This document shows positions 9,441 to 28,500 of a DNA stretch of 64,000 nt, piece after piece. The notes below the pieces were generated by a model, which saw only the letters and a list, made by a program, of their open reading frames with translations, was not told the origin of the DNA and made no database searches. This stretch comes from Pseudobutyrivibrio ruminis. Its GTDB lineage: Bacteria > Bacillota > Clostridia > Lachnospirales > Lachnospiraceae. The position numbers were made by a program, and so were the translations under genes. Within the stretch, counting starts at the first letter, position 1. Each line of letters starts with the position of its first letter. Where the stretch lies: positions 1-64,000 of the forward strand of contig SVER01000009.1 in NCBI GenBank assembly GCA_015057315.1, given 5' to 3'.

Positions 9441-9457
9441 TACATGAATAACATCAA

Positions 9458-9991
9458 TTACCCTAACTCAAGTCCATATTCTTCTTTGGCAATCTTTTTA
9501 TAACGTTCCAGCCAAGAGTCAAACATTGCATAATCTTTTCTGTAAACCTCGCGATTTTCGCATATCAATGCATTAATTTTAGCTATCATATCGTCAATAT
9601 CAATTTTGAAAGCTGCTGTACCGTCCTTTTCTTTATCTAATTGATAGAAAAGTATTCTCAGTAATTGCTCTAAGCTACCAACTTTTGCTGATGATACGCT
9701 AATTAAAGCATATAGGCCATCAGCATATCCTTTGTCGTATCCACCCTGAGGGTTCTTTTTATAACAATTATGAATAGCATCAACCACATAAAAGAAATTA
9801 TGACCAGCCTCTGGATGTATCTCCACCATGCACGCTCCAATTCCTGCAAGTAGAGGCAAATATGCTATTTTTATTCCTTTTATATAATCATTATTAACTA
9901 AATCAACCATGCGCTCAGTTCTTTTGTTAGGTTCCATATAATCTACAAAATCCTGACTAACGCCATATTTCTTCAATAAATCGTTATCCAT
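9458..9991 (-). CDS. Immunity-like protein, family A copy 5
   Basis: 177 residues. The N-terminal third is its own (DNDLLKKYGVSQDFVDYMEP), the middle resembles copies 1, 2 and 4, and the C-terminal about 100 residues equal those of copy 3. It follows the 325-residue gene by 15 bases and has a hairpin after it. Family not recognised. Confidence 0.7.
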   Translation of the reverse strand: MDNDLLKKYGVSQDFVDYMEPNKRTERMVDLVNNDYIKGIKIAYLPLLAGIGACMVEIHPEAGHNFFYVVDAIHNCYKKNPQGGYDKGYADGLYALISVSSAKVGSLEQLLRILFYQLDKEKDGTAAFKIDIDDMIAKINALICENREVYRKDYAMFDSWLERYKKIAKEEYGLELG

Positions 9992-10006
9992 AAAAACCTA
10001 TCATTT

Positions 10007-11435: not shown

Positions 11436-13841
11436 TTAATGTTTATGATATGTCCATTCTAATTCGTCAGCGTCCCAATCTCCAACCACAACATCTTCAC
11501 CATCTACAACAAAATGTATTTTTCCTTGTTGAGGTTGTAATCCTTTAGGATATGTACCTTCATTCACATAAAATTCAGGTACATCAAAACCATTATTGGA
11601 CATGGTGAATCCGTTTCCTGTATATGGTTGGTCGAAATGATACTCTCCACCATATAAGTCACCATACGGTATATCTATAAAATCATGTTTTGATATAGTA
11701 AATTCAATATAACCATAGGCTTCTTCATGTTCTGGGAATGGTTCGATTTTCACTCCATTTGAGTCTTCGTAGCTATAATCTAGTCGTAAACCGTCTCTCA
11801 TCTCACCATAGGTATTAAATGCATTTACATCATCTGCTTTTGCAACAAATCCTTTTATAGACCAATTTTGATTAATATATGAATCTAAATCCTTCCATGG
11901 TACAGTCTTACGTATAACTACTTTATCATCAATTGCAGGTACAGATTCACGAATAATCTGCATTTGCCTAAATTCTTCAGGCGACAAATCTCCAACTGGT
12001 GTAAGTTTCATTCTTTCAAATTCAGCTTTTGTTGGTCTATCCTTAGCCAATATAAAATCGTTTATTTCTTTGATATCTATACCATCTTTTCTTAAATTCT
12101 CCCATTTCTGATATCGTGCTCTATCAGCTACAGTAAAGTTTTCGTCAATCTTATCAAAGTAATCACAATCACCCAAAATATGTCGACCATCTGAAACTGG
12201 TGCCAATGTGCTATTATCAGCATCCACCTTAACGCTCTCGCTCCTCAGCTTAAGCAACTCACTACCATCAATACGTGACATAGCTGTTGCAGTTGCAATC
12301 TGACCATCGGCGAACTTCCATGCTTCTATATCAACATCCTTTAAACCAGGGAAGTTATTGTGTGTACCGTTAGCACATTCAGAACTCCAAGCATTATATC
12401 TGGCTGCATCTTCGGCAGACATAAAGTCAGTGAAATTAATTTCGTTGTCAGGCAATAATGATTCATGGGCAATAGCATTAAGACTTGGGCCATCTGGCTT
12501 AGCTTTCATATTGCCAGCAAAGTTTCCGATAGATTCGTATGTGCCAGGGTCTACCAATGCACCAATAAATATCTCTGATAATGCTTTCTGTGTCTGATTC
12601 AAGCCTATATGCTGGTCCATGAAATCTACTGCAAACCCTGTTGCCTGATCGCCAGCAAAATTAAATACCATTTCCTTTGCCACACCAACTGAAACTGCCT
12701 TGGTAACCTCTATGCCTTTCATTCCCGCATTTAGTGCTTCCGAGTAAGCATTGCTACCAGGCATTAATACAGATACTGCAAACAGATTTGCTTGTCCCCA
12801 GATATCATATATCTGCTGATTACCCATAAATATAGTATCTCTTAATGGGTTAAAAGCATAAGAAGAGAGGTCTCCTTTCATGCCGTAATATACATCATCC
12901 ACACCTTCCAATGCATTAGATATTCCATATCCATAAACACATGTACCTGTAACGCACAATGCACCTGCGACAAGCGGAGTAGCTGCACCAGCCGATGCTA
13001 TAATAGCTAATCCACCTATGACTGCTATACCAACTCCCTTAATTATTTCAGCTCGGCCTTGATCTATTCGAGCTTGAACAGCTGCATCATAGTCAGCCTG
13101 CATTTGGTCAGCAACCTTCTGTAGGTTTTCTCCAGCTGCAACTATATCAGCCTCATGATTCTTTAGGAATTCCTGGCTTACTTGCATGGATTCGTACAGC
13201 TGATATGCGTACATATTGTTAGCACAATCGCCACTCTTATATTCACCTGGCTTTATACTCTCATGATAATAGGTAATAAATGTCTCAAGATTTGCTATAA
13301 ATTCCTTCAGCGAATCTAAATCTGTAGAGTGTAGATTTTCATAATTAACTATAGATTCATCAAGTGTATCTATTTTCTGAATCATCCAATTCAAATCAAA
13401 ATCCACTGTCTCTTTACTTGGTACAGACAAGCTAATAATATCTGAAACACTATTTAATGATGTCTGCATTTCTGTGCTAATTGCTTCATTATCGCTCAAG
13501 TATTGTTGTACCTGCTCCTGTACCTGAGCCATTGTCTCAGCATTAAACTTAGTTGCATAATCACTATCAATATTAAAATAGTTTGACTCATACAGCAGTA
13601 ATTTTGACTGATATTCTACAAGCATGCAAGAAACTGCGCCTATTAATGGCAGATGTATTTCTGATGCATAGGTCTTTATATTGTCTGCCGCTGTACCTGT
13701 AAAAGCTTCCGAATTAATTATGTTATTTAAATCTGTTGAAACCTTTTCAAGAATATCCTGAATCTCTGATATTCTTGAAACCGCTGTATTGTAAGCTGAT
13801 AATGTTTCCAAAAAGCTTACTTTGTAATTCTTCCCTTCCAT
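11436..13841 (-). CDS. LXG-domain polymorphic toxin, 801 residues
   Basis: N-terminal about 220 residues form an LXG domain: helical, with the signature FTGTAADNIKTYASEIHLPL near residue 60. A glycine/alanine-rich hydrophobic segment (about 265-310) and a spacer shared with the other LXG toxin follow. The last about 200 residues are the variable toxic tip, ending GEDVVVGDWDADELEW. I do not recognise the tip; the arrangement of R, GFVAKAD and VPEFY elements could fit an ADP-ribosyltransferase-like fold, which is weak inference. Two helical partners and a DUF4176 protein precede it; the immunity gene follows. It should be exported through the EssC channel encoded upstream. Confidence 0.85.
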   Translation of the reverse strand: MEGKNYKVSFLETLSAYNTAVSRISEIQDILEKVSTDLNNIINSEAFTGTAADNIKTYASEIHLPLIGAVSCMLVEYQSKLLLYESNYFNIDSDYATKFNAETMAQVQEQVQQYLSDNEAISTEMQTSLNSVSDIISLSVPSKETVDFDLNWMIQKIDTLDESIVNYENLHSTDLDSLKEFIANLETFITYYHESIKPGEYKSGDCANNMYAYQLYESMQVSQEFLKNHEADIVAAGENLQKVADQMQADYDAAVQARIDQGRAEIIKGVGIAVIGGLAIIASAGAATPLVAGALCVTGTCVYGYGISNALEGVDDVYYGMKGDLSSYAFNPLRDTIFMGNQQIYDIWGQANLFAVSVLMPGSNAYSEALNAGMKGIEVTKAVSVGVAKEMVFNFAGDQATGFAVDFMDQHIGLNQTQKALSEIFIGALVDPGTYESIGNFAGNMKAKPDGPSLNAIAHESLLPDNEINFTDFMSAEDAARYNAWSSECANGTHNNFPGLKDVDIEAWKFADGQIATATAMSRIDGSELLKLRSESVKVDADNSTLAPVSDGRHILGDCDYFDKIDENFTVADRARYQKWENLRKDGIDIKEINDFILAKDRPTKAEFERMKLTPVGDLSPEEFRQMQIIRESVPAIDDKVVIRKTVPWKDLDSYINQNWSIKGFVAKADDVNAFNTYGEMRDGLRLDYSYEDSNGVKIEPFPEHEEAYGYIEFTISKHDFIDIPYGDLYGGEYHFDQPYTGNGFTMSNNGFDVPEFYVNEGTYPKGLQPQQGKIHFVVDGEDVVVGDWDADELEWTYHKH

Positions 13842-13847
13842 TTTTCA

Positions 13848-14120
13848 TTATCCCTCAAAATTATTTTGTAAATCTTCATCCATCTCTTCTAATTCTGATA
13901 CTACAGTTTTCATGCTAGAAACATTTGCTGTGACCATCTGCTTATATAAATTAACTGTATTTAACATTGTATCTAACATATCACCATAGTTCTCTAGCAT
14001 GATATTATTCGAATCTGTAAATTCAAGCTTTTCCGCTGCATGATTAATACTTTTTACATCTGTGTTGTAAGTGTCTAGTAAGGTTTCAAACCCACTATTA
14101 ACTTTTAAAGTTTCTCCCAT
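13848..14120 (-). CDS. LXG partner, small helical protein
   Basis: 90 residues, all-helical, acidic C-terminus (ELEEMDEDLQNNFEG), WXG100-like length. It lies 6 bases before the LXG toxin. In LXG systems two such small proteins bind the LXG stalk and complete the secretion signal (Lap1/Lap2). Role assigned from size and position. Confidence 0.7.
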   Translation of the reverse strand: MGETLKVNSGFETLLDTYNTDVKSINHAAEKLEFTDSNNIMLENYGDMLDTMLNTVNLYKQMVTANVSSMKTVVSELEEMDEDLQNNFEG

Positions 14121-14132
14121 AACACACCTCTA

Positions 14133-14537
14133 CTAATTAACCTTTTTCTCAATCTCGTTCAGAAGCGACTGTATTCTTGAGTTGAGCCATCCTATTGCAC
14201 CATAATGATCGTTGTTTTCAGCTTTAAGAGCAGTGATTTTATCACAGATAGCATCTAATACAGCATCAATATTATCAATATATGTATCATACGCTGGTGG
14301 CACATAATCCTGACTACATTCCACTACTGTATTCTTATTAGTGCCGTACCATGTACCATCTGCTGCAAATGCAGTTACAAAATTGTCATTCCAATTAGTC
14401 TTTAATTGGTCTGCTTCATCTTTGGCATCCGCAATATCCTTTTTTACAACTTCAAGTCTGGATATCTTTGCATTGTTAGCATCAATAGCGCTGTTATGCC
14501 CATTGATTTCTGCATATAAATCATCTATCAGTCCCAT
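14133..14537 (-). CDS. LXG partner, coiled-coil protein (YwqH/DUF5082-like)
   Basis: 134 residues. An N-terminal coiled coil (residues about 10-50), a central TKW/W-containing turn and a C-terminal coiled coil, the pattern of YwqH-like LXG accessory proteins. It resembles 42834-43268. Sits between the DUF4176 gene and the small partner gene. Confidence 0.65.
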   Translation of the reverse strand: MGLIDDLYAEINGHNSAIDANNAKISRLEVVKKDIADAKDEADQLKTNWNDNFVTAFAADGTWYGTNKNTVVECSQDYVPPAYDTYIDNIDAVLDAICDKITALKAENNDHYGAIGWLNSRIQSLLNEIEKKVN

Positions 14538-14547: not shown

Positions 14548-14865
14548 TTATTTGCTTAATAATGATACCGAACCTTTTTCAAAGTTCTTTTCCTCTGTCC
14601 ACTTATCAAGATTGTTAATCATTCGGGCATCATCCTCGTCACGGTAGCCTTCAAAAATGATTTCAGAAATATCTTCATTATTGAAATATAATAGTTTGTC
14701 ACTAACCAATCCCTGAGGATAGATGCAACCACCATATTCAAACAAGTACTGTTTTCCGTTTCTTTGAATAACCATTCCTCTTGAAATAATCATAAGCTTC
14801 TGGATTCCACCGTTGAGAATCACCACACTACCAATTGGTAATCTTCCTGTTATCTTTTCTTCCAT
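14548..14865 (-). CDS. DUF4176 family protein
   Basis: 105 residues. The N-terminus (LPIGSVVILNGG, then KLMIISRG) and the segment EYGGCIYPQGL are typical of DUF4176, a small beta-rich family regularly found in Firmicutes T7SS effector loci. A paralogue lies at 43270-43596. Biochemical role unknown to me; location between EssC and the LXG module fits an accessory to effector delivery. Confidence 0.8.
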   Translation of the reverse strand: MEEKITGRLPIGSVVILNGGIQKLMIISRGMVIQRNGKQYLFEYGGCIYPQGLVSDKLLYFNNEDISEIIFEGYRDEDDARMINNLDKWTEEKNFEKGSVSLLSK

Positions 14866-14880: not shown

Positions 14881-15042
14881 TTATTTCTTTTGCTCGATAT
14901 TATTTTTCTTTAGATACTCCGTATATGCGTTACTATCATCCCTATCAATTCCGTATCTGTTACTTGGGAAAAATACGGCTCTTAATATGGATAATACAGC
15001 TATAACAACTAACAATATAATAGTAGCTTTTTTACTCATCAT
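14881..15042 (-). CDS. 53-residue single-pass membrane microprotein
   Basis: Reading frame from ATG-ATG at 15042 to TAA at 14881, with GGAGAG 3 to 6 bases upstream of the two ATGs. It encodes a short basic start, one hydrophobic helix (TIILLVVIAVLSIL), a basic FFPSNRYG turn and a charged tail (YTEYLKKNNIEQKK). It sits 9 bases after the EssC stop and before the DUF4176 gene, filling what would otherwise be a gap in a tightly packed operon. It could be a small core subunit or EssC regulator; that is inference. Confidence 0.7.
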   Translation of the reverse strand: MMSKKATIILLVVIAVLSILRAVFFPSNRYGIDRDDSNAYTEYLKKNNIEQKK

Positions 15043-15051
15043 TTCTCTCCT

Positions 15052-18000
15052 TTATTCTTCTTCCCACAATGGTGTCTTCAACTTAACAACCATGTTGTCC
15101 TTCATGTAATATCCGTCACCAAGCTCTACCTTCTTCTTGAATGCACGAGCTACAGTTAGAGGTATTTCAACTGGCTTCATCAATACTAAATCATCGAAGA
15201 ACATGAAGTGCTTCTGTTCCTTAATCTTCTTTAAGATTTCAGGTGCGTTAAATGGAATCTGCTCATTTTCGATTCCACCAATGATGATGCCGACATGCAT
15301 ATTCTTGTATTTACCAATGATGTTTCTATAAGCGTTCATAACTGTTGTATTAGAAGAAATGCTTGTAACAATATCAGGCTGCTGAATAATGATAAGGATT
15401 AGCTTGCCATCATTTACCGCATTAACATTGCCATTTGCCAATGCTTCGTATCTTGATGCAAGAGCCTGCTCAGTACTTGTAATCACTTCAATAGCAGCAT
15501 CTTCTGTCATCGAATAGCTTGCCACATTAGGCATATCCTTTAATGATGCAAGGCCTCTGTCGATACCATCGATGATGTGTACCTCTGTCATGTCTGGATA
15601 CATCTTGTTTAACATGCCAACAATATACTTGATGATATTGTGACGGCCACGGCCTTCTCTACCAGAAATAGCCATTGCACCCATTGTTCCGATATCTAAC
15701 ATGAATGGCTCTACAGTTGCATAGTTAAGACCTACTACAACCTCGAACTTCTTACGTGTAAATCTGTTCAGGTTAGCTTCTACCATGCTAGATGTAAGGA
15801 CTGCAGGGATTTCTGGAATCTCTCTAGCCTTAAGACCAGCATATGTTTCGTTTGTAGATGATATAAATGTCTTGATAGCTTCTACTCGCTCAATTTCCTT
15901 TTCGCCTTCAAATGCAAGATATGTCTGGCAATCTAAATGCTTCTTGTCGATTTCCACAATGGCACGACCACTAATATCTTCTATACGCTCTCTACAATGC
16001 TCGAATAATGCACTATATTCATTTGAATCGTTGCAGAATAATGCAATTCTACAAGAGAAATTACTAAGATACTTGTAACCCATACCTGCTGTCTGTGCAT
16101 TTGCGAGCACAACATTAACACCTACTGTGATACCTTCTCTACAAAGTGTTAGTAGGTCGTCATTTTCTGTGAAATACATTTCCTTCAAAGCTGTAAAGTT
16201 ATCCACCATAAGAACTATTTGTGGAAGGTCTGTCTTTCCAGCTTCACGATATGCAGCAAAGGAACTTACACCTACTGAAAGTAGCTTTTCCTTTCGCATT
16301 TCGATTTCTGTATATAAAAGCTTGAACAGGTTCTTTAGCTTCTCATCTTCAGATGATGTAACTACACCACCCACATGATTCAAGCCTTCAAAATTCTTAA
16401 GAACCATTGATGCAAAATCCAATACGTAAATATTTACTTCCTGTGGAGAATATTTTGTAGCAATGCTTCTTACAATAGCCTGAAGAAGGTTTGTCTTTCC
16501 AGACTGCGAAGAACCAATAATCATTACATTTTCTTTTGTAAGATTGATAGAATGCTTGCCCTGGAACTGGCTGTCTGGATCATCAAAGATACCGATATCT
16601 GCAATAATATCTGTTCCATTTGTTGCAAGCTCTTCTCTTGCAGGGAAGTCTATAACCTTTGCTAATGGTGGTAAACAAATTTCCTGAAGCTTTTCAATAT
16701 GATGCTCCTTGCAATATTCATTAACACGCTCAACAATAGCTTCAAGCTGATTCTGCTCGCCCTTAGACTTTTCTGCCTTTTGCTTGTAAAGGACAGTTCT
16801 CTTTCCTGATAAATCTACACCGTTAATCTCAAACTTTCTGCTGTTTTCTGTACTGCTGACAACTGCTGGTGCACCACTATATGCAGACTGGAACAGTTCG
16901 AAGATTTCGTTGTTACCAACCTGGAGATAAGCTCTACCAGGCTCTCTAATTTCTGCTGCAAGAGGTGATTTTAATACCTCATTACTATCTGATTTATCCT
17001 GTACCTTCAAACAAAGCTTGAACTTTGAGTTAGACCAGATCTGGTCGTTAACTACACCGGCTGGCTTCTGTGTTGCAAGAATAAGGTGAACACCTAAGCT
17101 TCGTCCGATACGGGCAGCAGAAATAAGCTCCTTCATGAACTCTGGCTGCTCGCTCTTTAACTCCGCAAACTCATCTACGATAAGAATTAAGTGTGGTAGT
17201 GGAGTCTCAACCTTGCCCTGCTTGAACAAGCTGATATAATCATCAATCTTATTTACTTTAGCTTCTCTAAATAATCCCTGACGGCGTAACAGCTCGGCCT
17301 TGATAGAACGAAGTGATCTATCAATCTGCTTTCCGTCAATGTTTGTAATAGTTCCTGTTAAGTGTGGAAGGTTTGCAAACTGGTCGGCCATTCCACCACC
17401 CTTAAAGTCGATGATAACGAATCCAACTTCGTATGGATGGAAAAGTGTAGCCATAGACAGGATGTAAGACTGGATAATCTCTGATTTACCAGAACCTGTT
17501 GTACCAGCAACAAGACCGTGTGGTCCATGGAATTTTTCATGTAAATCAAGGTAAACTATTTCACCACCACTCTTCACACCAAGTGGTGCTGCCATGCTCT
17601 TGTAAATTTGAGAGCTTCCCCATCTTTCTTCAAGGTTAAGGTCATAGGCATTCATTATTCCAAGGAGCTGATAGAGAGAAATGTTCTTTGTCAATGTTCC
17701 CTCTAGGCTCATTTCATCTATATAAACGCAGCCCAATCTAAGTGCTAGCTGCTGCACATCTTCTCTGCTTGTGTGAGGATATTCGAAGGTCTGGATATTC
17801 TTTCCATCCTCAGCATCCTGAATGTAGCCTCTGTAAGCATCGCTCTGCAAGAATACAAGCTGTGAGCAGTACATATTTAAAAGCTCCTGCTGCTCTTCCC
17901 AGAACAAGAATACAAATCCAAGCTTTGATGCTCTATCCACATAATCCATAACTGGGTGCTTACGGATACGCTCTGAACGATATACAAATACAACGTATGT

Positions 18001-19593
18001 AGGAAGCTTGGCTACCACATCTTCACCAAGCTGCTCTCTTGCATTTAATTCGTTATATAAGAATTCAAGTGCTCTCTTTGCACTTTCATCATCATACATG
18101 AAATATCTCATGCCACCATTATTGGATGACATATTTTTGAACCATCTAGCCCATGCAAAATCAAGAACATCATTCTCGCCAATAACCAAGAACATCTTTA
18201 CTTCTTTGTAGAAATATTCGCCGGCGATTGTTACCATCATGTTCTTCATAAGCTGATATAGTTTTTGACGCTCAGCAACAAAACCTACAGCATTTGCTTC
18301 CTTTAAATGAAGCACTACAGGCATTCCATCAATATACTGATATTTATCATGAATCTTCTCAGGAATATCCATCATGTCATCCTCGATATCGATGTATTCC
18401 TGCTTCTTATAATCAACCTGCTCTTTGGATTCTACTAAACCAGTTCCAATCCAAACATCCAGGAAATCTTCCTCTTCCTTTGTGTGAGAAAATAGGTTTC
18501 CATCAAACTGCTTGATAGAATTCATAGTATCTTCTACTGAACGATTCATCTTGAGCATGATAGTCTTTTCGTCATTTCTGGCAGTGACTATTTCATCCTC
18601 TTTTCTAGCAATGTAATCGTCGTAGTAAGCTATTCTTTCCTCTTCCTTTTTCTTACGCTTTTTCTTGTCCTGGAAATAATTGATTACTGCAAGGACACCA
18701 CTAATCATACCTGTTGCAGCAAACATGATTACGTAAGAAAGATTACTTCCCATCATAAGACCACGGACGCCAACCATAACGCAAAGCATCATAACTGTTG
18801 GAAGTAAAATCATAAACAGATTCTTCTGCTCGTCGTTCTGTTTTGATTTTGGTGGCAATACCTCTATACTTTCCTCCGGCACCTTATAATGCTGACGCAC
18901 ACTTCTTGAATAGCTAGGGTAATTGAAATGAATATTATTTGCTTCGATTAACTGATTTGGGAGCTTTGTATCGATTCCGATAGAATCTGAAGTATAAAGA
19001 TTATCATTCTCCAAATAAAATACATGACCATATAAGCCTAAGAAATCCTTAGACTTAAACTTTTCATTGCTATCCTTATGTAACAAACCATTAACTGTAA
19101 CACCATACTCCAGGTTACTGGTATCGATGGTAAAACCATCTCCTGACTTGTTTAGTACAACAGAACCTGACTTTAATTCTCTATCAAAGAATCTGATATC
19201 ACAGTTTCTATCACCACCGATTGATAAGGTGTTCTTTCCTGCAATATTTATTACCAGGTTATAGTTATCCTGTACTGTATCAAAAAATACATCATATTCG
19301 ATATTAAATAATTCGCTGCCTGTCTCTCCATTTGATACCTTTAGCACATTACCAATAGTTAGGCTTGCGTTCCTAGAATCCTGCTTGCCATTAAAACAAA
19401 CCGGGCTTTCTGCAATTGCCTCCAATTCACCATTATTATTCTTTAATGCAATGGTGAACTCCTGCTCAAAGTCCTCCCTCAGCAACTGCACCTGGCAGTT
19501 CTTACCTGTTCCTATTAGCAAACCCTTAAAGTCATCTTCTACAACCACTTCCTTGTATAATTTGCTACTGAATACCGTAATCTTATACTTCAT
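15052..19593 (-). CDS. essC: T7SS motor ATPase EssC
   Basis: 1513 residues. The N-terminal part has two FHA-like domains (about 1-220), then two membrane helices (about 258-305) and a charged coiled segment. Three FtsK/SpoIIIE-type ATPase domains follow: D1 with Walker A GTTGSGKS (about 700) and Walker B LILIVDEF; D2 with GSSQSGKT (about 1028) and IVLMVDNF; D3 with the degenerate GREGRGRH (about 1314). This is the layout of Firmicutes EssC/YukBA and is the energy source and channel component for substrate export. It ends the signalling part of the operon and precedes effector genes. Confidence 0.95.
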   Translation of the reverse strand: MKYKITVFSSKLYKEVVVEDDFKGLLIGTGKNCQVQLLREDFEQEFTIALKNNNGELEAIAESPVCFNGKQDSRNASLTIGNVLKVSNGETGSELFNIEYDVFFDTVQDNYNLVINIAGKNTLSIGGDRNCDIRFFDRELKSGSVVLNKSGDGFTIDTSNLEYGVTVNGLLHKDSNEKFKSKDFLGLYGHVFYLENDNLYTSDSIGIDTKLPNQLIEANNIHFNYPSYSRSVRQHYKVPEESIEVLPPKSKQNDEQKNLFMILLPTVMMLCVMVGVRGLMMGSNLSYVIMFAATGMISGVLAVINYFQDKKKRKKKEEERIAYYDDYIARKEDEIVTARNDEKTIMLKMNRSVEDTMNSIKQFDGNLFSHTKEEEDFLDVWIGTGLVESKEQVDYKKQEYIDIEDDMMDIPEKIHDKYQYIDGMPVVLHLKEANAVGFVAERQKLYQLMKNMMVTIAGEYFYKEVKMFLVIGENDVLDFAWARWFKNMSSNNGGMRYFMYDDESAKRALEFLYNELNAREQLGEDVVAKLPTYVVFVYRSERIRKHPVMDYVDRASKLGFVFLFWEEQQELLNMYCSQLVFLQSDAYRGYIQDAEDGKNIQTFEYPHTSREDVQQLALRLGCVYIDEMSLEGTLTKNISLYQLLGIMNAYDLNLEERWGSSQIYKSMAAPLGVKSGGEIVYLDLHEKFHGPHGLVAGTTGSGKSEIIQSYILSMATLFHPYEVGFVIIDFKGGGMADQFANLPHLTGTITNIDGKQIDRSLRSIKAELLRRQGLFREAKVNKIDDYISLFKQGKVETPLPHLILIVDEFAELKSEQPEFMKELISAARIGRSLGVHLILATQKPAGVVNDQIWSNSKFKLCLKVQDKSDSNEVLKSPLAAEIREPGRAYLQVGNNEIFELFQSAYSGAPAVVSSTENSRKFEINGVDLSGKRTVLYKQKAEKSKGEQNQLEAIVERVNEYCKEHHIEKLQEICLPPLAKVIDFPAREELATNGTDIIADIGIFDDPDSQFQGKHSINLTKENVMIIGSSQSGKTNLLQAIVRSIATKYSPQEVNIYVLDFASMVLKNFEGLNHVGGVVTSSEDEKLKNLFKLLYTEIEMRKEKLLSVGVSSFAAYREAGKTDLPQIVLMVDNFTALKEMYFTENDDLLTLCREGITVGVNVVLANAQTAGMGYKYLSNFSCRIALFCNDSNEYSALFEHCRERIEDISGRAIVEIDKKHLDCQTYLAFEGEKEIERVEAIKTFISSTNETYAGLKAREIPEIPAVLTSSMVEANLNRFTRKKFEVVVGLNYATVEPFMLDIGTMGAMAISGREGRGRHNIIKYIVGMLNKMYPDMTEVHIIDGIDRGLASLKDMPNVASYSMTEDAAIEVITSTEQALASRYEALANGNVNAVNDGKLILIIIQQPDIVTSISSNTTVMNAYRNIIGKYKNMHVGIIIGGIENEQIPFNAPEILKKIKEQKHFMFFDDLVLMKPVEIPLTVARAFKKKVELGDGYYMKDNMVVKLKTPLWEEE

Positions 19594-19611
19594 AATCCTT
19601 CTTCCTATCTA

Positions 19612-19863
19612 CTATTTTTCGTAAAATATAACTGACCCATTTCTGAGGCCGAGGCTTTCAAGTGTAGCCTCGCCTCTAATTAATGCTATTGGGTTTTCCG
19701 CACGCATATAGCACTGTACTGGATCATCCATATCTATTGGCAGCTTAAAACTGTTTTTCAAGCCGTAGATTAATTCATTTGCAGTAATATCCAGCGGAAC
19801 CTCTATATCGAATTCCTGATTCTCTTTAACGTTTTTAAATCTAATGATTATCTTTGTATCCAT
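19612..19863 (-). CDS. esaB: EsaB/YukD ubiquitin-like T7SS protein
   Basis: 83 residues. Beta-grasp pattern: strand, LDITANELIYGL helix, and the late LESLGLRNGSVIFYEK end. This matches YukD/EsaB, a small cytosolic T7SS component encoded beside EssC. The gene is 18 bases upstream of essC. Confidence 0.85.
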   Translation of the reverse strand: MDTKIIIRFKNVKENQEFDIEVPLDITANELIYGLKNSFKLPIDMDDPVQCYMRAENPIALIRGEATLESLGLRNGSVIFYEK

Positions 19864-19872
19864 ACCTAACCC

Positions 19873-21441
19873 CTACTTTCTGTATACAAACTCCTCGTTT
19901 GATAGCTTAATAACATCGCCTACACGCAACTCCTGAGGCTGGCCTGCCACAAGCATTACATCGTTAAGGAATGTGCCATTCTTAGAATGATTGTCTTCTA
20001 CAAAAACACTGTTGCCTTTGATTGTAAATACCGCATGCTGTCTACTGATTGTGTTATTATCGCGGATGCAGTAATCACAATGTAAATCATCCTTACCTAT
20101 GCAGAAGTTTGTCTTAGTGATTGAAATATTATCATTGTTCTTTGTACGCTCCAGGTAGCCACCGTTAAGCTGCTGGGATGGTGCTGCCATGTTTGTACCA
20201 GTCATAGAATCACTTACACTTGTGCCTGCGCCTAATACTGTTGTATCAGAACTGGTTGAATCTCCTGCAAATCCTGCTGGAACTGTAGACTGAGCACGGT
20301 ACTGTGCTGTTGGACTTACCTTTACTGGCTCCTCTTTTTTAGCAGCGTTTGACTTATTTCCCTTTACCAGAATAATAATCACTACAACTACTAAAACGAT
20401 GACAACTACTGCTAATACGATTGTCATAACAATTACCCAAACTGGGATTTTTTCCTGTTTTTCAATAACCTTTGGCTCCACTGGTGCAGGCTTATCTGCT
20501 TCTATTTCTGCCTGTAAATCTGCAAATGTCTTGCTTGAAAATGCAAGTCCCATTCCATTTAATGCCTTAACAATTGTGTTAGAGCTGGTTGCATAGTAAT
20601 AATTTCCTTCAGCTCTAAGTGTGTTCATACCAATTACATATCCATCTTCTGTGATAATTGGGCCACCTGCATTATTTGCTCCTACCTGAGCTGTATGCTC
20701 TACCCACTGTGTATCACCTTCTGCGATGATATTGCAGATTTGTCCAGATGTTTTATTTACTCTATCATTTGAGTAATAGACTTCATTTGTTTCAAATACA
20801 ATCGCATCTGGAAATCCTAAAGCATATGCACTGCTCACTGAATTGTAATCACTCTTATTATTGTCAGCAGAATATAAGAATGTCATTGGTGTTCTGTTGT
20901 ACAAAGACTGTGATAGCTTAAACACTGCTAAGTCTAAATCAACACTACTATTAACAAGTGAAGCCTCTGTTGTCATATCGTTTTCAATAACTACTTCGTA
21001 CGTAAGAGTGGCTCTCTCTCTGTCGTCAGCGCCTACACCAAGGGCTGTTAAAAAGCTGTTCTTTGTTTCGTCATCTGGTGTCATTAATGCAAGACTTGTA
21101 AGAACATATTCTGTTCCATCAGCTTCTCCAATAAGAATTCCTGATGCACCCCTTAAAATATGGCTTATGTTATCACTAGTCTTATAAACACAGTTAATCT
21201 GAACAACACCATTTTTAGCTCTATCGATGTTGTCCATTTCTTTCTCATCTTTTGCTGTTTCTTCTTCTTCTACTTCTGAAGCTTCTTCTGATTGCATTTC
21301 ATCAGATACAGGAGCCTCTCCCTCTACCTGCTCTGTGGCTTCTGTTGCTTCAGCAGCATAGGCTATGCTGCTAAAGCTTGTGGTCATAATTCCAAATGCA
21401 ACTAATGTTGCTGTTAATATTGCTACTATTTTCTTATTCAT
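19873..21441 (-). CDS. Membrane FHA protein with inactive trypsin-like ectodomain
   Basis: About 522 residues from ATG at 21441, which has AGGGG seven bases upstream. Order: signal peptide; acidic linker; trypsin-like fold (about 65-320); membrane helix (IVMTIVLAVVVIVLVVV); linker; C-terminal FHA domain with the ISRQHA and SKNGTFLND motifs. In the protease domain the Asp region (DLDLAVFKL) is present, but the His site reads LTSLALM and the Ser site reads GANNAGGP instead of GNSGGP, so two of the three catalytic residues are gone. The cytosolic linker carries SDTTVLGAG, a possible phosphothreonine site. Proposed role: surface sensor linked to phospho-recognition. Confidence 0.85.
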   Translation of the reverse strand: MNKKIVAILTATLVAFGIMTTSFSSIAYAAEATEATEQVEGEAPVSDEMQSEEASEVEEEETAKDEKEMDNIDRAKNGVVQINCVYKTSDNISHILRGASGILIGEADGTEYVLTSLALMTPDDETKNSFLTALGVGADDRERATLTYEVVIENDMTTEASLVNSSVDLDLAVFKLSQSLYNRTPMTFLYSADNNKSDYNSVSSAYALGFPDAIVFETNEVYYSNDRVNKTSGQICNIIAEGDTQWVEHTAQVGANNAGGPIITEDGYVIGMNTLRAEGNYYYATSSNTIVKALNGMGLAFSSKTFADLQAEIEADKPAPVEPKVIEKQEKIPVWVIVMTIVLAVVVIVLVVVVIIILVKGNKSNAAKKEEPVKVSPTAQYRAQSTVPAGFAGDSTSSDTTVLGAGTSVSDSMTGTNMAAPSQQLNGGYLERTKNNDNISITKTNFCIGKDDLHCDYCIRDNNTISRQHAVFTIKGNSVFVEDNHSKNGTFLNDVMLVAGQPQELRVGDVIKLSNEEFVYRK

Positions 21442-21913
21442 GATTAATCCCCTTATCCATAACATCATTTGTAATTACAATTTCATCCTCTATTTCAAAT
21501 CCGGCAACACTTCCAGATGCAGGTATATTTGTTTCACTCAATAAAACGGTTCCCTCATCTTCATCACCGGAATCTAAAACTGTTGTTGCTTCTACCTCTG
21601 AAAGTAAAACTGTTTCCTCGCTCTCTGAAGTACTGTTTTTTAATAATCCCGATGTATTCCAAGACAATGCTGCCTTCTGATGTTTTTGACCAACATACTC
21701 CATACCAGTCTTTGTAGTCGATGAAATCTTTCTGATTTCCTTTTCTACACCCATTCCAGTAAGAACTTTTATAGAATGTGGTATCTTAAGTAGGAAAAAA
21801 AATACTATTGCCATTATGGTAAACACAATAGCTATGATTAACAGACTTAGTCCTAGTGTTTGGTAAAACTTCATCTGTTCTGTTACGTTTGTTGCATCTG
21901 TACTTACTATCAT
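21434..21913 (-). CDS. Single-pass membrane protein with repeated TVL threonine motifs
   Basis: About 159 residues from ATG at 21913. A short N-terminal outside segment, one membrane helix (LGLSLLIIAIVFTIMAIVFFFL), a basic stretch, then an acidic tail with EETVLLSE, EATTVLDS and EGTVLLSE. Similar TTVL/TTIL motifs occur in both FHA proteins of this operon. The tail is therefore a good candidate substrate of the neighbouring kinase and ligand of FHA domains. Its topology could suit a distant EssA counterpart, which I cannot show. It overlaps the next gene by 8 bases. Confidence 0.75.
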   Translation of the reverse strand: MIVSTDATNVTEQMKFYQTLGLSLLIIAIVFTIMAIVFFFLLKIPHSIKVLTGMGVEKEIRKISSTTKTGMEYVGQKHQKAALSWNTSGLLKNSTSESEETVLLSEVEATTVLDSGDEDEGTVLLSETNIPASGSVAGFEIEDEIVITNDVMDKGINHE

Positions 21914-21923
21914 AATAATCACC

Positions 21924-23606
21924 CTATTCAGCTAGCATAATAGCTTGTCTAGCCTTTTCTATATTTGTATTGAGCTCTTCCTCCAGCTCCTTTACCATTT
22001 CGTTATCTTCGGCATCTGTTCCAGCTATATCTTCTTTCACATGCTTTTCTATGTTTATAAGCTGAAGCTCCATGTCCGAATAGCTAACTCCAGCTTTTGC
22101 GAAGTTCTGAATGTTTGAATAAATCTGTGAGGCCATTTCTTTGTAAATGATTAATGCTGTATTAGCATTATCTATTTCTGCGATATTTCCGCTGGATACG
22201 GCAACCAAATCCTCCCAATACTGCTTATAATCAACCTTTGTATCACCTGTTTTATCAACACTTCCAAGATTGATATAATAATCTGCAATGGCGCCTAATC
22301 GCTTTGCTCTTGCTGTTCTGGCTTCGTCCAATCCACCATCTGCCGCTTTCTTTAACCAATATGCTGATTGCTGCTTATTTCCTTCACCGTTGTAGTTATA
22401 GAAATATGCAAGACCTAGTCTATAAGCAAACAAGCTATATGCTTCTTCATTTTGAGATAGCAACTGCTCGTATGTAGCCTTTCCCTGAGTTCTGATCAAC
22501 AGCTCTCTTATCTCTAATGCTTCATCCTCAGTAAATACATCATCTACTAAATAAATTTTATCTATCAGACTTATATATGCATCTGGCTTTGCTGGGTCCA
22601 CTGAAATTGTGTCTATAAGTGCTTCCTTCATTCCATCAATTGTCTCAACACGTGTCGCCTGCTCCAGCATACTGTCGTAACTTACCATCTGGAACTTGCT
22701 AGCATGTCTGTATGAGGCAAAGGAACCGATTCCTGCTGCAAGAGCTAATGCTGCTGCAGTACAGAAAATACCTAATTTTAATTTTTCACCACGTCTATAT
22801 GAATTATCTAACTCATCATAATGATCAAGGTCATATAGTAGCTTTGCACAGTTCTGATATCTGTTGCTTGGATCCAGCTGAGTACATTTAAGAATAATCT
22901 GCTCTAATCCCTGGGATAAAGCCCCATTCCAATATCTTATTGGATACATCTCGTATGGTGGCTCACTAGGATTTTTACCAGTAACCAGATGATACATTGT
23001 AGAACCTAAGCAATAGATATCTGTACGGGCATCTGTTTGACCATGGCCACCAAACTGTTCAGGTGCTGCGTAGCCTCTTGTTCCAAGACATGTAGTATCC
23101 TCAACATTCTCTTCCTTGTACTGACGAGCTGTACCAAAATCGATAAGCACGATTGTTCCGTCAGGCTTGAGCATAATATTTCCAGGTTTTAAGTCTCGAT
23201 ATATGATAGGTGGATTCTGTGAGTGTAGATAACCTAACACATTACAAAGCTGCTTTGCCCATTCAATTACGTATTCCTGAGGTTGAGGACCATATTCGTT
23301 GACAGCCTTGCTAAGAGTGTTTCCTTCTACGTAATCCATAACAATTAGCAATGAATCATCATAGTCGATAATATCGATAATACTTGGCAAGTTTGGATGT
23401 GATAGATTTCTAAGCATTTCAATTTCGTTCTTTAAACTCTGAAGTGTAATATCAGAATTAGCCATTGCATCTTTTCTAATCTCTTTTATTGCCCACTGCT
23501 TGTTGGCTCTTTCATTCATTGCCAGGTATACGGTACTCATTCCGCCCTGTCCAATCTTATTTAATATTTTATATTTGTTATCTATTAAGGATCCTATTTC
23601 TAACAT
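21924..23606 (-). CDS. Transmembrane Hanks-type Ser/Thr kinase of the T7SS operon
   Basis: 560 residues. Kinase domain 1-270 with GQGGMSTVY, ATP-binding K41, catalytic YRDLKPGN (D138; His of HRD is Tyr), DFG at 156-158 and a GTRGYAAPEQ activation-loop end, so it should be active. One membrane helix follows (about 282-302) and then a 255-residue extracytoplasmic part with Sel1/TPR-like helices (AYWLKKAADGGLDEA). Stop and start with the PP2C gene are 2 bases apart. It probably phosphorylates the TVL-motif proteins and thereby controls assembly around the FHA domains of EssC. Confidence 0.92.
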   Translation of the reverse strand: MLEIGSLIDNKYKILNKIGQGGMSTVYLAMNERANKQWAIKEIRKDAMANSDITLQSLKNEIEMLRNLSHPNLPSIIDIIDYDDSLLIVMDYVEGNTLSKAVNEYGPQPQEYVIEWAKQLCNVLGYLHSQNPPIIYRDLKPGNIMLKPDGTIVLIDFGTARQYKEENVEDTTCLGTRGYAAPEQFGGHGQTDARTDIYCLGSTMYHLVTGKNPSEPPYEMYPIRYWNGALSQGLEQIILKCTQLDPSNRYQNCAKLLYDLDHYDELDNSYRRGEKLKLGIFCTAAALALAAGIGSFASYRHASKFQMVSYDSMLEQATRVETIDGMKEALIDTISVDPAKPDAYISLIDKIYLVDDVFTEDEALEIRELLIRTQGKATYEQLLSQNEEAYSLFAYRLGLAYFYNYNGEGNKQQSAYWLKKAADGGLDEARTARAKRLGAIADYYINLGSVDKTGDTKVDYKQYWEDLVAVSSGNIAEIDNANTALIIYKEMASQIYSNIQNFAKAGVSYSDMELQLINIEKHVKEDIAGTDAEDNEMVKELEEELNTNIEKARQAIMLAE

Positions 23607-23608
23607 AT

Positions 23609-24409
23609 CTATACTCCAATTACTAAACCTGAAATGTTATCTGTCTCACCACGGGACTTGACTAATTCAGTCATCTTTTTTATGCCATTCTTTTGGCTTC
23701 CATACTTAATAATTTCATCATTAGAAAGCAGTCGCCACAAGCCATCTGAGCATAATAAAAAGTTTGAACCATCCTCCACTTTTCCTCTGAAAAAATCGGG
23801 ATAAACATTTTCCGACGCTCCTATACACTGTAAAAGCACACTCTTATCAGGACTTTTTTCTGCCTCTTCTTTTGTCATACGCCCCAAATCCATCTGCTGC
23901 TGCACATAGCTTTGATCGTGAGTGATTTGCTTAATATCCTTTTTGTTAAACATATAGGCTCTAGAATCTCCTACGCTCATAATCAAATACTCGTTTTGCA
24001 TAATAAGCAGGCAAACAGTAGTTGTCCCCAATTTAAATCCTTGTTCATAACCATACTGCTTAAGACCTTGATTTATTTGTCTGACTATCATTTCCCACTG
24101 TGCCTGTATCTGACGCATGAAATCTGGTTTTGTATCACCGCATACAGATAAATCTTCAGTAACATCCTCCACAGAAATGATATGTGGAAATTCATTTTGG
24201 AACCATTGTCCCATTCTATTTACTAAGGATGAACTAGCGACCTCGCCTTGAGACAAGCCCCCCATTCCATCGCATAAACACGCAAAACAGACACGACCAA
24301 TATTGCCTGTTCGTGCCTGTTTTACAATAAGCGCATCTTGATTCACCTTCTTCTTATTTCCTATATCAGAATAGGCGTCAATCTTAAATTTTGAATTAAA
24401 AATATCCAT
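23609..24409 (-). CDS. PP2C-type Ser/Thr phosphatase
   Basis: 266 residues, soluble. The PPM metal-binding set is complete: NQDA near residue 23, CDGMGG near 51, SVGDSRAY, CSDGLW and a final GETDNISGLVIGV. It lies 2 bases upstream of the kinase gene, the usual kinase-phosphatase pairing, and should reverse the kinase within the T7SS signalling set. Confidence 0.92.
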   Translation of the reverse strand: MDIFNSKFKIDAYSDIGNKKKVNQDALIVKQARTGNIGRVCFACLCDGMGGLSQGEVASSSLVNRMGQWFQNEFPHIISVEDVTEDLSVCGDTKPDFMRQIQAQWEMIVRQINQGLKQYGYEQGFKLGTTTVCLLIMQNEYLIMSVGDSRAYMFNKKDIKQITHDQSYVQQQMDLGRMTKEEAEKSPDKSVLLQCIGASENVYPDFFRGKVEDGSNFLLCSDGLWRLLSNDEIIKYGSQKNGIKKMTELVKSRGETDNISGLVIGV

Positions 24410-24439
24410 TTTTTCATTACCCTTTATATATTACTTTTC

Positions 24440-25072
24440 TTACGCTCCATACACAAACTCTTCATTAGCAAGCTTTAATACATCCCCATCTTTAATTAAT
24501 ACCTGTCTTCCGCTTTCAAGCTTAATGCCATTAATCCAAGAACCATTTGTTGAATTACAGTCTTTTACGTATACACCATTCTGACCTAATGTAAATAATA
24601 AATGCTGTCGACTAATAGCTCTATTGTCGCTGATGCAATAATCTGCATTAATGCTATCTTTTCCTACCGAATAATCATTCTTACTAATCTTAACTTCTTC
24701 ATTAGTCTTCTTTCGTGTCAATGTTCCTAATGAAATGTTATTTGATAATTCAGCTGCACCTAGTACTGTTGTTGCCCCATCCTCTACTGGATTAAGTGCT
24801 GCATTACTTAAAATTGTTGTTGCATCACTATATTCTGGTTTTACTGGAGCAATATTCATGTACTGTGGGCCTGTGTATGATGATCTGTTTTTCTTTTCTG
24901 TTTTCTTAAAACTATGATTTGAATTTACTTTTTTTACATCAGAAGCTACTTCTCTAGGTACATCACTTGCATTTTTGTTTCTTAGAATAAGAAGTACACC
25001 TATAATTATTACAACTATTACTAAAAGTAATTCCAATCCTACTATCATCATCCATATATTTAATGTATTCAT
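24440..25072 (-). CDS. Membrane-anchored FHA protein
   Basis: About 210 residues from ATG at 25072 with AGGAGG 8 bases upstream. N-terminal membrane helix (MIVGLELLLVIVVIIIGVLLI), a basic linker, two threonine motifs (DATTILSNA and GATTVLGAAE) and a C-terminal FHA domain with RAISRQHLLF and CNSTNGSWING. First gene of the signalling/EssC operon. The linker and FHA domain suggest phospho-dependent self or partner binding. Confidence 0.88.
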   Translation of the reverse strand: MNTLNIWMMIVGLELLLVIVVIIIGVLLILRNKNASDVPREVASDVKKVNSNHSFKKTEKKNRSSYTGPQYMNIAPVKPEYSDATTILSNAALNPVEDGATTVLGAAELSNNISLGTLTRKKTNEEVKISKNDYSVGKDSINADYCISDNRAISRQHLLFTLGQNGVYVKDCNSTNGSWINGIKLESGRQVLIKDGDVLKLANEEFVYGA

Positions 25073-25108
25073 TTTCAATTCCTCCTAATATCTCATTTAT
25101 TCAATAGG

Positions 25109-25153
25109 TTGATTAAATAATAAAACATTTATTTCTTTTTATTATTTAATCAA
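25109..25153. promoter_or_regulatory. 17-bp perfect AT-rich inverted repeat before the FHA-kinase-EssC operon
   Basis: Arms 25109-25125 and 25137-25153 (TTGATTAAATAATAAAA and its complement) around an 11-base loop, 40-80 bases upstream of the first start codon of the operon. It could be a repressor site, an RNA hairpin or part of the promoter; no clean -35/-10 pair was found. Confidence 0.5.
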
Positions 25154-25176
25154 ACAATTGCATCTTCTAACAAATA

Positions 25177-25201
25177 GCGGCAGACCAAAACAGCCTGCCG
25201 C
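25177..25201 (-). terminator. Terminator hairpin after the WXG100 gene
   Basis: GCGGCAG...CTGCCGC hairpin 20 bases after the WXG100 stop, followed on the minus strand by TATTTGTT. It belongs to a repeated GCGGCAGGCTG-type hairpin found six times in the T7SS region. The tail is weak, so some readthrough into the EssC operon is possible. Confidence 0.7.
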
Positions 25202-25220
25202 ATCCATTTTGTAGAGATTA

Positions 25221-25514
25221 TTATGCTCTAAACTGTGCTGCAATATCGCTATCTGTAGACTCTACGATTGATGCTGTAGAATCAAGTGCTGAAGCGATTT
25301 CTCTGATAAGCTCTTCTGCCTTCTGGAATCCTGGCTTAAGCTCCTCGTAACGTCCAGCGTAAGACTCGCTTGCTGAACCTTCCCACTCAGCCTGAAGATT
25401 TGAAAGAAGAGAATCCATGTTAGAGATAACTCCGTTAACTGTATCAGCCTCGTTACGATACTGATTTGCTCTCTCTCTCATCTGATCTGGTGTAATTCTA
25501 ATCTGATTTGCCAT
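25221..25514 (-). CDS. esxA: WXG100 protein, EsxA-like
   Basis: 97 residues. Two helices with the W-x-G turn (QAEWEGSASESY) in the middle, and the typical start ITPDQMRERANQYR. WXG100 proteins form helical-hairpin dimers exported by T7SS. It follows the Ig-like surface protein gene by 58 bases and is closed by a terminator, so it shares the regulated promoter at 29244-29318. The symbol reflects the family; orthology to S. aureus EsxA is not proven. Confidence 0.93.
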   Translation of the reverse strand: MANQIRITPDQMRERANQYRNEADTVNGVISNMDSLLSNLQAEWEGSASESYAGRYEELKPGFQKAEELIREIASALDSTASIVESTDSDIAAQFRA

Positions 25515-25571: not shown

Positions 25572-28500
25572 TTATTTGGTTTTCTTCACAACAACTATTC
25601 CTCCAGCAACCAATGCAAGAGCTGCAATTACTGCTAACACGATGATAATCTTGTTAATTGGAGCGCCTGCGATAACATCTTCTACCTTATCACCAGCTGA
25701 ATATGTTGGAGTTAATCCACCTTCAATAATAAGTTCTTCTGCCTTCTCTGAAACAAGAATGTTGTTATATGCTAATTTTGTTTCATTTCCAGCAACGTCT
25801 GAACAGATAATTTCTACTTTCTGATAATCATCTTTGCTAGAAAGTGTGATAACCTCTGTTCCACCATTCTTTAGGAGCTGATCACCTGTGTAATCTGCTA
25901 CCTTCTCACCATCCAAGATAACACTCATTTTTGATACACCAATTGTATCTACTGCGTTTATTGAGAAATCATGGCTAGCTTCTTCATACACGCCTTCATT
26001 CTCTAATCCTGATACAACTACGCTTGGTGCGGTTGCATCCATTAGGAATTCAACCTCAGCATCCTTTGTCTGGTTGCTCTGCTTGTTAGATGCTCTATCT
26101 TCAGAATAAACTGTTACTGTATAAACACCGTCTTTCTTAAAGTTTGCCGCATCTAATGTATAGCTAATTGAATGCCAACCTTTTTCATTTGTGTAATCAC
26201 TTGTCTTAAATGTTCTGCCTTCTGATAATTCTTTTACATTACCTTCGTTTGCAACAGATACTTCCTTGTAAGTAAGTGCATCTACATTAATCTCTGTAAT
26301 AACAACATCCTGTGGACTTGTTACATAATAATTATCCACCATAGCCTTTGTTGCATCACTAAGTACGAAGATTGAGCCAAATCTATTAATAGAATATTTA
26401 AGTGTCTTTTCTACTACATTTCCTGCTAAATCAGTAAGCTTTACATTTAATGTGTAAAGATCATCGTTGCTCTTATCATGAGCTAAATCAGCGATTGTGT
26501 ATGTGATGTTCTCTGACTGACCTTCTGCTCTAATAGAAGGATTAACCTTTCCATTATTAGAACCTGAAAGATTGATTTCTGTACTAGCCTGTGTGATGTT
26601 TGTATCCTTTGATTTGATAACAGGTACAACCACACCATTGTTAGCTGACATATCTTGAACACCTGTGATTTCAAGCTCAGGCATTGTTAAATCTATTACA
26701 AAATCATCACTAACATACTGCTTAGCTTTGTTACCAGCCAAATCTTCACAATCAACAATGAATCCATAGCGGCCATCCTGATTGAAAGAAATCTTTGTTA
26801 CATGCTTATTATCTGAATTAGAATATGCAGATAATGCAGGAACTGCATTCTTCTCACCAGAATTCTTTGTTACAGTAACTAAATCCTTATCAAAGTTTAC
26901 TTCCTTGAAAAAAATTGTAGCTGTACGACCTGCTTTGTAATACATATCGTTCTGAGCACTGTTATTATCAAATTCTACTGTGAAAGTAGGTACTGTCTTA
27001 TCAATTACAAACTCTGATGTACATTTGTCTGAAGACCCTTCAGCTGGGAACTCGCATGTATTACCTGCTCTATCAGTAATTGAGCAGCCACGAATCTGAT
27101 AAACACCATCTTCGTTAAATACAATAGTACCTGTGTATGACTTTTCAGAGCCTGTCATAGCATTATATTTAGGAGTTCCAACCTTTGAAGAAATATCTAC
27201 CTTATGAATATCTGCATCCTCTGGTGCAAGGTTCTCATCTTCAAGTTTTATAGTAGCAGTTCTATCTGCATTGAAATACTTTTCATGGTGAGCTTCACCG
27301 TCAAGAGTTACATATACCTTTGGAGCTGTCTTATCGACAATAAATTCATCTTCCTCAATCTTCTTTGTGTTACCTGCTAAATCGACGATTTGACCTTCAA
27401 CAACATGCACGGTTTCTGCATTAACTAATGCTGATGCGATGTTTGTCTCTTCATCATCGAAGTAAATTGAATCTGTTTGATTTGTTACGTTGAAGAATGA
27501 TTTATTATAATTGATAAATTCATCAACAGCTTCAACTTCTACAGTTACATCTGCAGCATAATACTTTTCATTTTTCTTATCTGCTGTAGATATATACTTG
27601 ATTCTATAATCAGGAACTGTGTTATCAACAAATGTGCTAACTGTATCCTCCTTTTCAGGTCTTGCGCCAAGCATTGAACCTGAAAGCTTGTATACATGCT
27701 CGCCATCTTTAACTCGTGTATCAGCTGGAACGTTAAAGGCTAATTTTGTCTGATAGCCAATGAAGCCTTCCCCATTATCTGTCCAAACATATTGAATATC
27801 TGGATCAACAGCCTGCTTTATTGAAGAACCTTTAGCTTCATTTGAAAGCTGTTCTGTTAAAGCTGCATTATCTAACACACCACCAAGCAAACCTTCGTAT
27901 ACAACTGTAATATCTTTAGGTCTGTTTTCGTTAAGAATACTTGAATACCACTTATTATCTTCGCCATCGTATTCCCAATCACCAGCGTAAATTCTTGTAG
28001 TTTCAAGTAAGTTAATGTGTTCTGTTGGGTTTACATTTCTTACGATATAATATGGATAGACGTCCTTGTCGCCCTTCTTCCTACGAATCTTTGTCCTTCC
28101 GTGACCGAGCCATTTTTTATATCCCATATTAAAGTTTACATTGACTTTCGAAATAGTTATTGGTGCATCCAATTCTTCAGGTGTCGTCCATGCATAAGTT
28201 CCAACTTTATTGCCGTTAGCATCTGTTTCTAAATTAATCAAATTCATTGGCATATCATCATACTTACCATTGTAATAATAATGTGCATTAACATATACCT
28301 TGTTTGCCCACACATCTTCATCTTCATCATTCAATAACTCACTAGATACAGTTGCAACAACTTTTATTTTTTTATCGAATACTTTGTATTCTTTACTGTT
28401 GTCTCCATCAACATACTTATGAATTGTTGAAGGCTCTATTGGAGTTCCATCTTCAGCTTCATATGAAACGCCTAAAACTACTTCTTGATTACTTCTGTCA

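Follow-up and report, generated by a model that had tools for sequence, protein, structure and literature searches.

A kinase-phosphatase-FHA gene set beside an EssB-less type VII secretion locus of Pseudobutyrivibrio ruminis

The window analysed here is the whole stretch of 64,000 nucleotides at positions 1-64,000 of contig SVER01000009.1 of Pseudobutyrivibrio ruminis, and the system in question is a type VII secretion system (T7SS) locus within it, at which the gene for the secretion ATPase EssC adjoins genes for a Ser/Thr kinase, a phosphatase and FHA-domain proteins. An initial annotation of this DNA had named EssC, EsaB, a WXG100 protein, a kinase, a PP2C phosphatase, two FHA proteins and a TVL protein, and all of them are present, near-contiguous from EssC at 15052 up to the WXG100 gene at 25514, every cassette gene being on the minus strand. 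In the direction of transcription the order is Ig-like surface protein, WXG100 protein, short membrane FHA protein, PP2C, Hanks kinase, TVL membrane protein, second FHA protein, EsaB and EssC, after which comes an LXG operon. The large surface protein (25572-29183; 1203 amino acids) is TsxI-like and carries Ig-like repeats (Pfam Big_13 6.7e-11, Big_3_3 1.5e-8); a signal-like start and a C-terminal membrane helix were recognized by eye. Its gene lies outside the coordinates given in the initial annotation and belongs to the same set. The WXG100 protein (25221-25514; 97 amino acids; PF06013, 9.2e-21) is EsxA/TsxA-like. In the gap between this gene and the short FHA gene there is, on the minus strand, a terminator-like hairpin (25201-25177; 11-pair stem with 7 G-C pairs) that is a consensus match only, so the run from WXG100 to EssC, earlier described as operon-like, is near-contiguous but may not be one transcript.

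Both an EccC/EssC ATPase and a WXG100 protein, by which membership of any T7SS is judged, were found. The ATPase (EssC/TsxC, 15052-19593; 1513 amino acids; TIGR03928 1161 bits, cut-off 778) is the only EssC copy in the genome. It does have FHA-like domains, as had been claimed, two of them at the N-terminus, but both are degenerate and lack S-x-x-H. The gene before it encodes EsaB/YukD/TsxB (19612-19863; 83 amino acids; Pfam YukD 2.1e-6, 28.8 bits against a cut-off of 27). Hidden Markov model searches of the own genome, which is 94.5% complete, gave 0 matches for EssB (PF10140) and 0 for EssA (PF10661), with positive B. subtilis controls for both, and no match for EsaA (TIGR03929) over the cut-off of 122. 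The best two EsaA scores, 42 and 35.5 bits, came from proteins of 722 and 744 amino acids on another contig that read as YhgE/Pip-like by eye. The reported lack of EsaA, EssA and EssB therefore holds, and no esaA-essA-essB set was found elsewhere in the genome. In the EssC tree, the 8 sequences from genomes with EssB group together (support 1.0), separately from the clade of the window's EssC, whose closest counterparts among the best 80 of 276 named-contig relatives are from an uncultured Pseudobutyrivibrio (98% identity) and then from Butyrivibrio (71%). As a further observation, four genomes of the same genus have a distinct frame, 324-455 amino acids long, that matches the FHA and membrane portion at the N-terminus of EssC (G150:C1:70114-71049, G161:C183:20-1012, G163:C78:9366-10349 and G164:C191:5308-6651).

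The Hanks kinase (21924-23606; 560 amino acids; Pfam Pkinase 4.6e-50) is TsxD-like and consists of a kinase domain, one membrane helix placed by eye and a TPR-like outside domain. The catalytic motifs noted earlier are all there (YRD, DFG and APE), and related kinases keep DFG in 57/57 and YRD in 56/57. The PP2C phosphatase (23609-24409; 266 amino acids; Pfam PP2C_2 5.9e-13), which is TsxF-like, has all five of the motifs that were sought, each of them found in 53-61 of 62 related proteins. The initial annotation had suggested that the kinase may take the position of EssB and had proposed structure prediction of its ectodomain as a check. The outside part (residues 299-560) gave a helical model with a predicted local distance difference test score (pLDDT) of 87; it models as a TPR superhelix with only generic TPR structure matches, and EssB/YukC was not among the 50 matches listed for it. 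Profile comparison with EssB by hhalign gave weak scores, namely a probability of 13% for the full length, at which the membrane helices and the first outer helices are paired, and 0.4% for the ectodomain.

The short membrane FHA protein (24440-25078; 212 amino acids; Pfam FHA 1.1e-14) has one helix, recognized by eye, followed by a linker with TTIL and TTVL and an FHA domain. The second FHA protein (19873-21441; 522 amino acids; Trypsin_2 2.4e-11, FHA 4.7e-17) has a membrane helix, a TTVL linker and an FHA domain, and was correctly described as a membrane FHA protein, but it is also an HtrA-fold protein with a broken triad. Judged by the canonical residues of FHA domains (S-x-x-H, N-G and an Arg), both proteins keep S-R-x-H and N-G, the short one as S-R-Q-H, and both have Lys in place of the usual Arg after the first Gly. 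The TVL protein (21434-21922; 162 amino acids), which is TsxH/TsxK-like by topology and was recognized by its family and motif enrichment, has a membrane helix and a cytosolic tail in which T-x-[V/L]-L occurs three times; across its family, one membrane helix precedes a tail made of repeats (ETTVL, STEVL and ATDVL, for example). In 44 proteins of this family there are 175 copies of the pattern T-x-[VILP]-L, against a mean of 16.9 and a maximum of 28 in shuffled sequences, and 28 pseudoprotease linkers contain 42 (shuffle mean 4.1, maximum 12). In the TVL family, an L stands three positions after a T 243 times, where 62 would be expected; the excess at +2 is smaller (120). Counts were inside the shuffle range for the PP2C, EsaB, Ig, FHAc, CpaE and kinase families and slightly over it for the EssC family (200 against a mean of 148 and a maximum of 182), the only match in the window's EssC being its P-loop. 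FHA domains favour Leu, Ile or Asp at the third position after the phosphothreonine (pT+3), and because T-x-[VLIP]-L is a pT+3 pattern of this kind, the TVL tail looks, by its sequence, like a multi-site FHA ligand.

In the second FHA protein an HtrA-fold outside domain is followed by the helix, a disordered linker and the FHA domain. Its model has a pLDDT of 74.5 overall, with the outside domain mostly at 81-95 per block, and its fold matches HtrA1 (Foldseek 6e-13, probability 1.00). The fold is present but the catalytic His-Asp-Ser is not, as the triad positions read Ala-Asp-Ala, and to judge from these residues the protein cannot work via this triad. Among 43 aligned rows, His-Asp-Ser is found in 5 and His-Asp-Cys in 10, the rest being broken; the five His-Asp-Ser rows come from four genomes with an EssC of another class in the tree.

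EssC relatives came from three sets: 39 of the 150 family genomes had a match, as did 20 of the 29 genus genomes, and the best 80 of the 276 named-contig relatives made up the third. Their neighbours were scored with home-made profiles in flanks within 10 kb of EssC. There were 107 EssC loci above 1700 bits, 92 after dereplication at 95% and 72 with at least 7 kb upstream, and these 72 comprise 66 FHA-bearing loci, 4 FHA-less loci and 2 with EssB. Kinases near EssC were scored at a limit of 60 bits and those sought genome-wide at 300 bits or more. The Fisher tests of co-occurrence ignore relatedness, and the family sample excludes the own genome.

The EssC of the window lies in a subclade of 35 sequences (support 1.0). 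Of its FHA-bearing loci, those with 7 kb or more of upstream sequence have the pseudoprotease at 100 bits or more in 23/23 cases, whereas 9/23 show a kinase within 10 kb and 13/23 show CpaE. Among the 23, the matches at L165 and L210 are short frames and the gene at L152 is downstream of EssC with 144 bits; among the 14 loci with no near kinase, at least two (L121 and L168) have one slightly past the flank. Since the pseudoprotease accompanies FHA-bearing EssC at every assessable locus of this subclade, it is a better candidate than the kinase for the connector, the role of EssB elsewhere. We also considered that loss of the EssC FHA domains might go with loss of both kinase and pseudoprotease, as 4/4 FHA-less flanks are without the kinase, and dropped this idea on finding that six FHA-less genomes of the same genus (G151, G153, G154, G160, G171 and G176) retain both elsewhere. 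At the FHA-less Butyrivibrio locus L164 (genome G187) the pseudoprotease is kept, with no kinase match at E 1e-40.

Of the 29 genomes in the genus sample, 20 have EssC (G163 only as an N-terminal piece), 21 the kinase and 21 a full-length pseudoprotease. Kinase and full-length pseudoprotease occur together in every one of the 20 EssC genomes, compared with 1/9 of the others (G166, 82% complete; Fisher 2e-6). In the family sample a kinase scoring 300 bits or more was found in 17/31 genomes with EssC and without EssB and in 15/111 EssC-less genomes (Fisher 6e-6, not corrected for relatedness). The association of the EssB-less T7SS with an active-looking kinase-phosphatase-FHA set, as the initial annotation had it, is thus borne out, and a functional link between the kinase set and the T7SS is supported. 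Around the 66 FHA-bearing, EssB-less EssC genes, an Ig-like homologue lies within 10 kb in 33 and any kinase in 36, with none seen in the other 30. At least 8 of these 30 owe their status to an edge or a threshold: L155, L199, L200 and L207 end inside the cassette, the kinases of L196 and L209 are slightly below the 60-bit limit, and those of L168 and L121 are slightly past the 10-kb flank. A fair no-kinase share among related EssC loci is therefore about one third. Kinases were then looked up in the genomes of 26 of the 30 no-kinase loci and of L139 and L164 (28 loci, 27 genomes), and were found at 300 bits or more in 21 genomes and more weakly in 4, with none at E 1e-40 in 2; the remaining four loci (L037, L038, L040 and L121) sit in kinase-bearing genomes. 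The kinase accompanies the EssB-less T7SS, yet it is neither always linked to it nor confined to it.

With moderate confidence, we favour a phospho-switch acting on secretion, with the pseudoprotease as candidate connector. In such a switch, the surface module made of the Ig-like protein and the TPR-like ectodomain of the kinase would sense the envelope or a contact, and the active kinase would then phosphorylate the T-x-[V/L]-L threonines of the TVL tail and of both membrane FHA linkers. The FHA domains would bind these phosphothreonines, so that the membrane FHA proteins, including a pseudoprotease in contact with EssC, would be re-arranged around EssC; EssC would thereby be adjusted and secretion gated, and the PP2C would strip the phosphates and reset the switch. 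A more specific form, in which the dead HtrA-FHA protein holds the role of EssB, the phosphorylated TxVL tail is a docking platform that the kinase writes, the PP2C erases and the FHA domains read, and the module also serves Tad pili, is speculative and rather unlikely. Several results weigh against the phospho-switch. No direct phospho-link to the EssC motor was seen, because the FHA domains of EssC are without the phosphothreonine residues and its one motif match is the P-loop. The shuffle figures overstate the evidence, because the sequences had been inspected before the pattern was picked and the proteins share ancestry. Those 10/43 relatives with His-Asp-Cys may, from their triads, be active cysteine proteases. 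Outside the subclade the pseudoprotease reaches 100 bits in 8/43 loci and more than 700 bits in only 3/43 (the other five of the 8 matches, at 108-116 bits, are taken as FHA-only proteins), and it is absent from the flank in 3/4 of the FHA-less EssC loci. Finally, the kinase at 300 bits or more in 15 EssC-less family genomes must have other uses. The best EssC-profile match in each of these genomes was a single stretch of 98-123 bits, under the cut-off, as FtsK would give.

These same genomes bear on the reading that the kinase-PP2C-FHA-TVL-Ig cassette is an independent surface sensor that shares the T7SS neighbourhood and perhaps its transcription. The neighbourhood of the kinase was seen in 9 of the 15, with PP2C and the TVL protein in 9/9 and the Ig-like protein in 7/9, so the signalling genes do in part occur without essC, a finding that the initial annotation had named as one that would count against its proposal. 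The kinase-PP2C-FHA-TVL cassette moreover adjoins Tad pilus-type genes at L058, L059, L062 and L088. A general Tad link for EssC-less cassettes was dropped, as it is clear in these 4 loci only, of which L058 and L059 are in EssC-less genomes, while the genomes of L062 and L088 have EssC elsewhere; L057, L060 and L065 have a CpaE-profile match only, that of L060 with a TadZ receiver domain. Against an independent sensor, the cassette tracks EssC across the genus (20/20 versus 1/9), and the kinase is in 21/27 genomes even when it was not seen beside EssC, so we consider this reading unlikely. The proposal that the active kinase physically replaces EssB, with its kinase lobe on the EssC FHA domains, one helix and an outside domain, draws on the shared topology and on the pseudokinase of EssB, which binds the EssC FHA region (as described in the consulted part of PMC9600267). 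EssB and the kinase are also mutually exclusive in the family (0/7 genomes with EssB against 17/31 with EssC and without EssB; Fisher 0.011), every EssC genome of the genus has the kinase, and hhalign does pair the membrane helices, although at the low probability given above. The TPR-like ectodomain with its negligible EssB score, the 15 EssC-less genomes and the loci with no near kinase, about a third once edge and threshold cases are considered, make this part of the initial annotation improbable, slightly more so than an independent sensor. A degraded or silent remnant at this locus would fit the absence of EssB, EssA and EsaA and of the CpaE-like and DUF6382-FHA partners of its relatives, but the reading frames are open, EssC is 75-99% identical in five genomes of the same genus, and the kinase and PP2C motifs are kept among relatives; we hold a remnant to be very improbable.

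Downstream of EssC, also on the minus strand, the LXG operon comprises a DUF4176 protein (14548-14865; Pfam 9.7e-26), two small partner-like proteins (13848-14537; YwqH-like 5.7e-12 and DUF5344 7.3e-4, the latter below its cut-off) and an LXG-domain protein (11436-13841; Pfam LXG 8.2e-20), which is likely a substrate of this T7SS. A second LXG protein is encoded at 44209-46224 and has a partial C-terminal TNT match (PF14021 2.7e-8). Tandem paralogues were recognized by eye at 3788-10000, five of a family of 167-180 amino acids (at 3788, 6383, 7738, 8397 and 9458) and a pair of 205 amino acids (at 5055 and 7061); they resemble an array of immunity genes next to the LXG operons. A protein of 637 amino acids (1132-3045), preceded by two small proteins, shows an HExxH motif on inspection by eye, matches nothing in Pfam at 0.001, and is a possible T7SS substrate. 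At 29541-31274 there is an Mbeg1-like (lipase-fold) protein (4.5e-9) with a long C-terminal part, its gene preceded by those for three small proteins and a lipoprotein-like gene. TslA is reportedly a 'reverse' lipase-type substrate, and by analogy the Mbeg1-like protein may be another. The window also encodes a 1672-amino-acid protein (33250-38268) that has a signal-like start and contains a domain of the transglutaminase-core type (PF01841 2.5e-9). In another genome, a TadE-like pseudopilin fused to a TNT toxin domain (L062, 15728-17170) adjoins the kinase cassette.

These results bear on how EssB-less T7SS secretion is assembled and controlled, and they offer concrete residues in the TxVL threonines and the FHA pockets. 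The pseudoprotease-FHA protein adds a new, constantly present component to one EssC subclade, and a T7SSf-like clade, of a type reported without a kinase, is found mostly in genomes that have one.

EssB-less T7SSs (T7SSc-j), several of them with kinases, PPM phosphatases, FHA proteins, Ig-like TsxI and single-helix TsxH/TsxK, are described in the consulted sections of Garrett, Higginson and Palmer 2024 (PMC11217815), among them an active kinase, TscD, whose active site is conserved and whose topology is that of EssB, though the two sequences show no apparent identity. As the kinase-type EssB-less T7SS is in that paper, the main inference of the initial annotation is not new. The window locus is best read as a kinase-type system without EssB that resembles T7SSe/f/j; the EssC tree includes no sequence known to be a TsfC or TsjC reference. 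As set out in those sections, T7SSj combines a WXG100 protein, an EsaB-like protein, an FHA-bearing EssC, a kinase with a C-terminal TPR part, a PPM phosphatase, Ig-like TsjI and single-helix TsjK. At the window locus we found a TsjD-like TPR kinase, a PPM phosphatase and a TsjI-like Ig protein, and a counterpart of TsjK by topology only, judged by eye. The locus differs from T7SSj in that the FHA residues of EssC are not kept and no DUF6382-FHA protein of the TsjJ type lies within 10 kb; the single DUF6382 match of the genome is within a Tad pilus locus.

The relatives of this EssC point to T7SSf. Among the 66 FHA-bearing EssB-less loci, EsaB is present in 61, a CpaE/MinD-like ATPase in 54 and an FHAc-type FHA protein in 54, and this common core of FHA protein, CpaE-like ATPase, EsaB and EssC is much like T7SSf, in which, according to the consulted sections of PMC11217815, TsfJ and TsfV adjoin EsaB-EssC. 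The likeness is qualified in two respects: DUF6382 was found in 1 of the 2 FHAc-type proteins scanned, and the 5 scanned ATPases have AAA_31 without a TadZ receiver domain. The window locus itself has no FHAc or CpaE profile match, as counterparts of TsfJ and TsfV, within 10 kb. No kinase was found with T7SSf in the account given in those sections, whereas 36/66 loci of the T7SSf-like clade have one within 10 kb. With T7SSb, the window system shares an EssC with two FHA-like domains, EsaB, WXG100 and LXG substrates; it differs in that EssA and EssB are absent and EsaA is below cut-off, and the EssC of EssB genomes forms a separate clade.

The pseudoprotease-FHA protein was not found in the main text of PMC11217815 ('trypsin' 0 times, 'protease' for mycosin only), nor did we find, in open-licence full texts, a description of it or of the repeated TxVL motif, or FHA domain, pseudoprotease and kinase together. 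Among these texts, PMC11217815 alone deals with the T7SS variants, T7SSf is named in one paper, and a T7SS, an FHA domain and HtrA come together in one paper, on S. aureus. The type VI machine is not known to be homologous to this secretion machine. Its control by threonine phosphorylation, with a kinase, a phosphatase and an FHA protein, is nevertheless a case of similar activities controlling a secretion machine, an analogy drawn in the consulted sections of PMC11217815, to which the window system adds a multi-motif membrane tail and a pseudoprotease.

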